From assembly GCA_003212345.1 (NCBI GenBank), contig QCPZ01000002.1:1-64000 (forward strand): 64,000 bases of DNA. Reading direction: 5' to 3'. The first letter of the stretch is position 1. Every line of letters begins with the position of its first letter. The translations under genes and the position numbers were made by a program. This document shows, one piece after another, positions 47,279 through 53,257 of this stretch. The notes beneath the pieces were generated by a model. It searched no databases, was not told the origin of the DNA, and saw only the letters and a list, made by a program, of their open reading frames with translations. This DNA comes from SAR116 cluster bacterium AG-447-A06. Its GTDB lineage: Bacteria > Pseudomonadota > Alphaproteobacteria > Puniceispirillales > Puniceispirillaceae.

Positions 47279-47364
47279 GCGGCTGTGGCGGAATGGTAGA
47301 CGCGGCGGATTCAAAATCCGCTTCTGGTGACAGAGTGGGGGTTCAAGTCCCTTCAGCCGTACCA
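47279..47364 (+). tRNA. tRNA-Leu, anticodon CAA
   Basis: An 86-base type II tRNA with an encoded CCA end. The acceptor stem is GCGGCTG/CAGCCGT (one G-T pair), D stem GCG/CGC, anticodon stem-loop GCGGA-TTCAAAA-TCCGC with anticodon CAA (reads UUG), a long variable arm (TTCTGGTGACAGAGT), and T arm GGGGG-TTCAAGT-CCCTT with two G-T pairs. The identity follows from the anticodon and the long variable arm. No T-rich terminator is seen just after it, and no integrase gene or target duplication is nearby. Confidence 0.96.
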
Positions 47365-50680: not shown

Positions 50681-51622
50681 ATGAGCCACCCTTTTGTCAC
50701 CCGCTTTGCTCCAAGCCCAACAGGTGCCTTGCACCTTGGCCACGCATATGCGGCGAAAGTGGCACATGACTTTGCTGCCAGATCAGGCGGCAAAATGATT
50801 TTACGTATTGATGATATTGACCATACACGCTGTCGGGATGAATTTATCCTGCCAATTCTCAGGAATCTTGCTTGGTTGGGCTTAAATTGGTACGGCGTGA
50901 AACCTGATGATGTCACTAACTCTCACATCACGAATCCGAGTATATCTAGACAATCACATCGCAAGGCGCAATATCAATCTGCCCTAAAAATCTTAGATAA
51001 TTTAGGTCTCATATATCCTTGTTACCTGAGCCGGCGTGAGTTGAACGAGGTATTAAGCGCACCACATGCGTTGCCATCAACACAGGTGAAAACAGATCAG
51101 CGTTCCCATAGAATGACGATCAATACGGATCAGCTTTTAAGCTCTAGCGAGCAGGAGCTGCGTCGAGCTGCTGGGAGAGCGCCCGCTTGGCGGTTACGTA
51201 TGAATGCGGCGCTGAAAAAGGCTCAACAAATGAGTCCCAACCCGCTATCTTGGTTTGATTATGCCACAGGCCATCAATTAGCTAAGCCTGAGGAGTTTGG
51301 CGATGTTGTCATCGCTAGAGCCGACATTGCCGTCTCTTACCATTTGTCAGTCGTTGTTGATGATGCATTGGATGGGATTAATCTTGTGACGCGCGGCAAG
51401 GATCTTGCCCAATTCACCCATCTGCATCGTTTATTGCAGGCGTTGTTGGGCTTACCTGTGCCAGAATATTGCCATCATGCTCTTGTTCGCGATGCGACTG
51501 GCAAACGGCTTGCTAAGCGAGATTCCACTCATGAACTAGACGGCATGAGAGAACTTAATAATGATCCGGCAAACATTTTTGCAAGAATGCCGCCCCTTCC
51601 TGAATTAAGGCCAACATTATGA
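50681..51622 (+). CDS. gluQ: Glutamyl-Q tRNA(Asp) synthetase
   Basis: Attaches Glu to queuosine in tRNA-Asp. It is a truncated GluRS: the HIGH region is RFAPSPTGALHLGHAYAAK and the KMSKS-like motif is GKRLAKRDSTHELDGM; the protein ends soon after, without an anticodon-binding domain (313 residues). The zinc site of the E. coli protein is not intact: only one Cys is seen in LIYPCYLSRREL. Such zinc-less members occur, so activity is still likely. Confidence 0.93.
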   Translation: MSHPFVTRFAPSPTGALHLGHAYAAKVAHDFAARSGGKMILRIDDIDHTRCRDEFILPILRNLAWLGLNWYGVKPDDVTNSHITNPSISRQSHRKAQYQSALKILDNLGLIYPCYLSRRELNEVLSAPHALPSTQVKTDQRSHRMTINTDQLLSSSEQELRRAAGRAPAWRLRMNAALKKAQQMSPNPLSWFDYATGHQLAKPEEFGDVVIARADIAVSYHLSVVVDDALDGINLVTRGKDLAQFTHLHRLLQALLGLPVPEYCHHALVRDATGKRLAKRDSTHELDGMRELNNDPANIFARMPPLPELRPTL

Positions 51623-51672: not shown

Positions 51673-51730
51673 AAAAGATTATATTAAACTCCGAACAAAT
51701 AGTTTGAGTAGATCCAGGGTAATCTTTTTT
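51673..51730 (+). terminator. AT-rich hairpin with T tract after gluQ
   Basis: AAAAGATTA (51673-51681) pairs with TAATCTTTT (51720-51728), enclosing an inner AAACT/AGTTT stem (51686-51690 and 51701-51705); the T run continues to 51730. It could end the gluQ transcript. The stems are AT-rich and the overall loop is long, so this is tentative. Confidence 0.3.
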
Positions 51731-51753
51731 TGATGATAAAATGGTCAGTGGGG

Positions 51754-51784
51754 TTGACTTAAAATGCAATTACTTCCATATATT
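51754..51784 (+). promoter_or_regulatory. Candidate promoter of the small RNA
   Basis: TTGACT (51754-51759) and TATATT (51779-51784) match the -35 and -10 consensus at five of six positions each. The spacer is 19 bases, longer than the usual 17, so strength would be modest or depend on an activator. A start near 51790 would place the transcript directly at the first hairpin. Confidence 0.5.
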
Positions 51785-51790
51785 AACGTG

Positions 51791-51862
51791 CACGAAACTA
51801 TTGTTTGCGTGTTTCCTCCCTGAACTCGGTCGTGAGTATGCTCACGGCCTCTTTTTCCTTTT
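51791..51862 (+). ncRNA. Candidate small regulatory RNA, about 70 nt
   Basis: A non-coding block with clear RNA layout. The 5' hairpin is CACG-AAAC-TATT-GTTT-(G)-CGTG (51791-51811, one bulged G). Then comes a short single-stranded stretch with CCTCCC (51815-51820), complementary to Shine-Dalgarno sequences. A strong Rho-independent terminator follows (51828-51862). A promoter-like pair lies just upstream. No credible reading frame covers it. CCUCC-type motifs are known in several alphaproteobacterial sRNA families, but I do not recognise this one. Predicted trans-acting repressor of translation, by inference. Confidence 0.6.
51828..51862 (+). terminator. Rho-independent terminator of the small RNA
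   Basis: A 9-bp stem GGTCGTGAG (51828-51836) / CTCACGGCC (51841-51849), with one T-G pair and a TATG loop, is followed directly by TCTTTTTCCTTTT. This is the clearest terminator in the window. No protein gene ends just upstream on this strand (gluQ ends at 51622), which supports a separate short transcript. Confidence 0.8.
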
Positions 51863-52078: not shown

Positions 52079-53257
52079 TTATGCTTGAGTGGGGCGCGAT
52101 ATCGCCAGCCACAAAATTGACGCCGCAATAATCATCACCGGTCCCAATGCAGATAAGACCATCACTTCCCAACCAAACTGGCTGTGCAACACTCCTGCCG
52201 TCAGCGATGCAACCGCAACCGTTGCAGTGGTCACCAGATCAGCAGTGCCCTGAACGCGGCCGCGCTCTTCCGGCTGGGCGACGCTGACAACAAGAAAGCT
52301 TCCCCCAATAAACAAAAAATTCCAGCCAAGCCCCATCATCGCCAATGAAGTAAAATACCACCAAAACGTGTCACCAGCTAATGCGCAGCCGATCGCCAAA
52401 AAATAAGTTAAGATGCCAGAAATTAAAATAACCTGTGCGCCAAAGCGTGCAATCAAATTTCCAGTAAAAAAAGCCGGGGCAAACATCGCAACAACATGCC
52501 ACTGAATGACTGTAGCATTTGCCGACGTACCCAGCTTGGCTATATTCACAATTTGTAATGGGGTCGCTGTCATCATATAGCTCATTAGCGCATACCCAAT
52601 TGCAGCACTAATTGTCCCAACAACAAAGATTGGCATTTTAAAAAACACGTTGATAGGCCGCCCTCCAGCTTTGGTGCGATTGGGTTTTGGAATATCTATC
52701 CCACTAAGAGTTATGAGTGAAAAGACCTGAATCAATGCTATGCTGAAGAAACATCCTGCATATAAATGACCGGGCACGAGCCCAACCGCATTGCGTGCAA
52801 TTTCAGGACCCAGAAAGGCCGCCAGCAAACCTCCAGCAAGCACATAAGATATCGCTCGCGGTTTTTGTGAGTTTTCAGCACTGTCTGCCGCTGCATAGCG
52901 GTAAAAGCCAGCGCAGCCTTGCGCAATGCCAAGACACATCGATGCCACACAAAATAGCGTAAAATTCATAAGTAAAATGGCAATGCCTTGGGTAAATGTT
53001 GCCCCCGCCGCAATCAAAACCCCGGCAATAAATATTGGCCTTCGGCCAAACTTAACCATCAGAAGTGACGCTGGCAATGTTGTTAGCATTGAGGCCACAA
53101 ACTGCAATGACAGGCCTAGCGTTGCAAGCCATGGCACTGGCGACAACAAACTACCCACAAGCGCTGTGTTGATTATGTTCACATTCATTGTTGTCATCGA
53201 CAATGCCTGTGCCAAAGACAGCCTCAACACATTGCCGGTATTACTTTTCATTTTCAT
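52079..53257 (-). CDS. Major facilitator superfamily transporter
   Basis: A 392-residue, 12-helix MFS protein. The loop after helix 2 is LLMVKFGRRPIFIAG (motif A-like), and helix 4-5 carries MCLGIAQGCAGFYRYAAADSAE, with PEERGRVQGTADLVTTAT in the later repeat. It differs clearly from the TetA-like MFS at 19.4 kb. Substrate unknown. Its 3' flank holds the structured elements at 51.8-52.0 kb. Confidence 0.88.
   Translation of the reverse strand: MKMKSNTGNVLRLSLAQALSMTTMNVNIINTALVGSLLSPVPWLATLGLSLQFVASMLTTLPASLLMVKFGRRPIFIAGVLIAAGATFTQGIAILLMNFTLFCVASMCLGIAQGCAGFYRYAAADSAENSQKPRAISYVLAGGLLAAFLGPEIARNAVGLVPGHLYAGCFFSIALIQVFSLITLSGIDIPKPNRTKAGGRPINVFFKMPIFVVGTISAAIGYALMSYMMTATPLQIVNIAKLGTSANATVIQWHVVAMFAPAFFTGNLIARFGAQVILISGILTYFLAIGCALAGDTFWWYFTSLAMMGLGWNFLFIGGSFLVVSVAQPEERGRVQGTADLVTTATVAVASLTAGVLHSQFGWEVMVLSALGPVMIIAASILWLAISRPTQA

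Follow-up and report, generated by a model that had tools for sequence, protein, structure and literature searches.

A divergent alphaR8 (MmgR/SisA) small RNA gene at a conserved gluQ locus of the SAR116 clade

Between gluQ and a convergent MFS transporter gene, the analyzed window (the whole 64,000-nucleotide stretch of DNA from SAR116 cluster bacterium AG-447-A06) carries a compact element which, judged from its sequence, is a divergent SAR116 member of alphaR8, a known and widespread alphaproteobacterial sRNA family that includes MmgR of Sinorhizobium and SisA of Caulobacter. We put at roughly 93% the probability that it gives rise to an independently transcribed, trans-acting alphaR8 sRNA of about 68 nt, driven by its own promoter between the two genes and most likely pairing with ribosome-binding sites together with Hfq. 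The gene structure, its conservation and covariation, orthology and family membership are shown here from the genomes of the order. The features referred to throughout are as follows.

50681 to 51622, forward strand: gluQ, tRNA glutamyl-Q(34) synthetase, the conserved upstream neighbor (NCBIfam NF004315 over cut-off; synteny).
51754 to 51759, forward strand: -35 element TTGACT of the sRNA promoter; TTGAC is kept in 47 of 48 syntenic orthologues.
51777 to 51783, forward strand: -10 element CATATAT, separated from the -35 element by 17 nt; CAT[A/T] occurs at the exact spacing in 41 of 48 orthologues.
51789 to 51857, forward strand: alphaR8/MmgR/suhB (RF00519) sRNA gene with a predicted transcript of about 67-69 nt (Rfam match, synteny, covariance model).
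51789 to 51812, forward strand: weak 5' hairpin with arms CACGAAAC and GTTTGCGTG, one bulge and the loop TATT (fold; compensatory pairs in orthologues).
51812 to 51821, forward strand: unpaired core TTTCCTCCCT, the alphaR8 10-mer seed with the anti-Shine-Dalgarno motif CCUCCC.
51828 to 51857, forward strand: intrinsic terminator, a 9-bp stem (GGTCGTGAG/CTCACGGCC) with a U-tract, the strongest of the window.
52079 to 53257, reverse strand: MFS transporter gene, the conserved convergent neighbor (weak MFS family match).

A sequence-only reading of this DNA had described promoter-like hexamers, a 5' hairpin, an unpaired CCTCCC and the best terminator of the window, packed into a short piece of non-coding DNA. 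All of these were recovered. TTGACT, CATATAT, hairpin, core and terminator follow each other in this order on the forward strand at 51754-51857, in a non-coding region delimited by the end of gluQ at 51622 and the end of the convergent MFS gene at 52079. Transcription probably starts at about 51789-51791, as suggested by the position of the -10 element. The predicted fold combines the 5' hairpin, the open core and the terminator hairpin at -23.7 kcal/mol, with z = -4.3 against dinucleotide shuffles; in this fold the core is fully unpaired, and it matches exactly the 10-mer UUUCCUCCCU reported for alphaR8 (PMC12559287). The terminator is composed of stem arms at 51828-51836 and 51841-51849, followed by TCTTTTTC at 51850-51857. 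When all stem plus T-tail sites on either strand of the 64 kb are ranked by fold energy, it holds the first place (-14.0, versus -12.0 for the runner-up), and it is also the top site of a local terminator scan.

The comparative evidence derives from an alignment of 48 syntenic orthologues, the window copy among them. The UUUCCUCC core is essentially invariant across the orthologues, and TTTCCTCC together with the ACT spacer is invariant or nearly so in the 48-orthologue alignment. Compensatory changes occur in six of the nine pairs of the terminator stem. Due to its varying loop length, hairpin 1 is misaligned by MAFFT and was analyzed by position relative to the core; its 45 distinct sequences reveal two to five standard pair types at each position of the 3' arm, and their mean energy is -7.3 kcal/mol, compared to -3.4 for shuffled sequences and -4.2 for controls that combine the 5' arm of one orthologue with the 3' arm of another. 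The core is open in nearly all individual orthologue folds, the clearest exception being locus L047. Thus, the two hairpins and the CCTCCC, whose lack of conservation in relatives had been named beforehand as the case against an sRNA, are kept in the 48 syntenic orthologues, and this lends strong support to an sRNA that exposes an anti-Shine-Dalgarno motif. The promoter deserves a separate remark. A consensus promoter scan alone does not list it among the 11 sites found (12.4 expected), and hence its support derives from its conservation in relatives.

A covariance model built from gluQ-adjacent homologues, as the sequence-only reading had suggested, is termed R1 here. It assigns 71.1 bits (E = 1e-17) to the window copy, a score that is partly circular because this copy belongs to the 48 sequences on which the model was trained. 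Across the order, R1 finds matches in 71 of 136 genomes, many of them with additional copies. In the genome of AG-447-A06 itself no further copies were detected with R1, and the next matches are noise.

About 48 genomes of the order have the sRNA block at this locus, with gluQ, sRNA and MFS gene arranged alike. In about 50 fetched loci gluQ adjoins the match to RF00519, including loci with matches above the cut-off of that family, and in most of the loci the MFS gene lies opposite. In many of the syntenic loci, comparison with the proteins of the window also reveals esterase, HNH and COQ7 genes on the upstream side.

This position could suggest a simpler reading, in which the element only terminates gluQ transcription, or is a piece of the gluQ 3'-UTR, and CCTCCC occurs by chance. 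The RNA does follow the gluQ stop on the same strand, at a distance of about 170 bases, and it has a strong terminator. Yet between gluQ and the RNA there is a conserved promoter whose 17-nt spacing is fixed, the conserved 10-mer and hairpin 1 would be needless for a mere terminator, and further RNAs of the family sit away from gluQ in genomes of the order. Moreover, directly after gluQ a separate weak stem with a run of seven T (51673-51731, z = -1.0), upstream of the sRNA promoter, possibly serves as the gluQ terminator. We therefore consider the terminator or 3'-UTR reading very unlikely and keep to an independently transcribed sRNA.

While its nature as an sRNA stood, the suggestion in the sequence-only reading that it might belong to an unnamed family did not: the match to RF00519 and the diagnostic 10-mer identify a named one. 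At the Rfam gathering threshold the window yields only a tRNA, the gene at 47279-47361, and nothing at the sRNA. The Rfam search proposed beforehand, when run permissively on the local region, returns RF00519 (suhB/MmgR) as the best match, with 30.9 bits, E = 1.4e-4 and the full model covered. A plain search is empty at the sRNA because this score stays below the default cut-off of 41 bits, the gathering score of RF00519, which is a reporting threshold and no biological feature. When the whole genome is searched, the single match of RF00519 is the window sRNA (E = 1.5e-4). Since the R1 score is partly circular, this match serves as the independent test that the element goes well beyond chance.

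Across the order, RF00519 matches 65 of 136 genomes. In 30 of these the match exceeds 41 bits, with a top score of 50.4, and the syntenic orthologues of the window sRNA reach 40-50 bits, including that best one. As the window gene shares the gluQ-sRNA-MFS locus with members above the cut-off, it is orthologous to accepted RF00519 members, and the same shared locus indicates common ancestry with accepted alphaR8 RNAs. Members of alphaR8 are defined by a terminator and by UUUCCUCCCU, which lies single-stranded inside the RNA, after a weak hairpin (PMC12559287). The window sRNA displays these traits, namely a single-stranded 10-mer, a weak hairpin upstream and a rho-independent terminator directly downstream. 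In most species, alphaR8 genes also neighbor a gene for N-formylglutamate amidohydrolase, as sisA does (PMC12559287), but here gluQ and the MFS gene take its place. This neighbor is usual but not defining for alphaR8, because Caulobacter SisB-D also lie elsewhere.

The unusual neighborhood, along with the gathering score that is not reached, could be taken to indicate that a new sRNA family arrived at the CCUCCC motif by convergence. Such convergence appears even less probable than the gluQ terminator reading: syntenic orthologues within the same order pass the RF00519 cut-off, and the identity in the RF00519 alignment covers the exact 10-mer and the ACU spacer ahead of the terminator. Least probable of all is membership in another family with CCUCC-type motifs, which are shared by AbcR (alphar15), SorY (RF02651) and anti-hemB (RF02837). 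Weak local matches to two of them exist, 18.2 bits for SorY and 23.1 bits for anti-hemB, but the respective gathering scores are 111 and 49.5, both matches score below RF00519, and both need broken pairs. AbcR RNAs, in turn, comprise 114-120 nt, three stem loops and two motifs (PMC7143759), as opposed to about 68 nt, two stems and one motif here. Assignment to alphaR8 is thus retained. Two aspects of it seem to be new: a divergent SAR116 clade below the cut-off, although an earlier alphaR8 phylogeny to which PMC12559287 refers may already list SAR116 members, and a fixed gluQ/MFS locus that replaces the N-formylglutamate amidohydrolase locus.

Comparison with characterized systems places the SAR116 RNA closest to MmgR and the Sis RNAs. 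MmgR of Sinorhizobium meliloti (RF00519), which keeps polyhydroxybutyrate accumulation in check and is itself under the control of NtrC and AniA (PMC7143759), resembles it in length (about 70-77 nt), the open 10-mer, the terminator and a sigma-70-like promoter; the SAR116 copy differs in scoring below the Rfam cut-off and in lying beside gluQ and the MFS gene. SisA-D of Caulobacter crescentus carry the same 10-mer seed after a weak hairpin and before the terminator, and paralogues exist here as well, in other genomes of the order. However, Caulobacter has four copies and the sponge CrfA, which antagonises SisA (PMC12559287), whereas a single copy was found in the AG-447-A06 assembly. AbcR1/AbcR2 (alphar15) share the anti-Shine-Dalgarno pairing on transporter mRNAs, but are longer, with three stems, two motifs and tandem genes (PMC7143759).

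Caulobacter SisA represses many mRNAs, including those of TonB-dependent receptors, by pairing of the 10-mer with Hfq (PMC12559287). By analogy with SisA and with Sinorhizobium MmgR, the SAR116 RNA would be expressed, depend on Hfq and repress its targets, and by homology it would do so in trans. The 5' hairpin and the terminator would stabilise the RNA and leave UUUCCUCCCU single-stranded. Most likely, this seed would pair, together with Hfq, with purine-rich, AGGGAGG-like ribosome-binding regions and thereby repress translation of mRNAs that serve transport and central or energy metabolism.

A scan for AGGGAGG-N3-11-ATG gave 19 sites, versus 6 for the reversed pattern. Six of the sites precede open frames of at least 120 aa, for which protein matches name AprA, SdhD, a periplasmic binding protein, FDH3 beta, L-threonate dehydrogenase and a GhrA-like reductase. 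These are candidates only, compatible with a metabolic regulon but no evidence for one, as a strong Shine-Dalgarno sequence gives the same sites without any sRNA. A CrfA-like sponge was sought in the 80%-complete assembly by perfect complementarity, and the sole other place with the complement AGGGAGGAAA lies inside a dnaJ-like coding sequence.

Of the 136 genomes of the order, 66 encode Hfq; among the 16 listed from the same genus, 12 do. In the assembly of AG-447-A06 itself (2.0 Mb, 80% complete) hfq was not found. We rejected loss of the gene: an assembly gap is likelier, because trkA and the whole 3-kb neighborhood that surrounds hfq in a close relative are missing too and the assembly is 80% complete. 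These empty searches were run without a dedicated positive control.

At the level of families, the distribution shows a joint absence in one sister family within the order, termed f3. Neither Hfq nor a match to RF00519 was found in any of its 58 genomes, 6 of which reach 90% completeness or more with little contamination, and R1 gave one marginal match of 23.8 bits. gluQ is seemingly absent from f3 as well, because most frames recovered by the GluQ query measure about 450 aa, a length typical of glutamyl-tRNA synthetases. Unlike f3, the families f1, f2 and f4 have both Hfq and alphaR8. On balance, we favor a joint loss of alphaR8 and Hfq, together with gluQ as the neighbor of the sRNA, in the whole f3 family, with retention in the other three. 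Absence of alphaR8 jointly with Hfq in a family also seems to be new. If true, Hfq-dependent riboregulation was dismantled in one marine alphaproteobacterial lineage, and the statement that alphaR8 occurs in all Alphaproteobacteria except Rickettsiales would be contradicted. A family without sRNA and Hfq would provide a natural experiment, and it is the most interesting by-product of this analysis.

With the gene described here, an alphaR8 anti-Shine-Dalgarno sRNA reaches the abundant, little-studied marine SAR116 clade, at a fixed new locus and often under the cut-off. Only 30 of the 65 matching genomes pass the Rfam cut-off, so annotation at this threshold overlooks roughly half of them. R1 and the 48-orthologue alignment can be used for annotating SAR116 members.

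Two further observations concern the promoter and the paralogues. A GGTCA/AGTCA box (51743-51758), located some 11 bases ahead of the -35 element, is kept in 21 of 48 orthologues. It forms the dyad GTCA-N7-TGAC overlapping the -35 element and is possibly a regulator site; genome-wide the pattern GGTCA-N6-TTGAC is not specific, with 8 sites versus 7 for a control pattern. Several genera of the order carry extra alphaR8 copies at non-gluQ loci (L037, L038, L041, L044, L046, L053, L062, L068, L071 and L077). Among eight such loci inspected, no obvious neighbor is shared across genera. The gluQ-type promoter is not obvious in these paralogues, and they possess different terminators, such as GGCCAGCC...GGCTGGCC.
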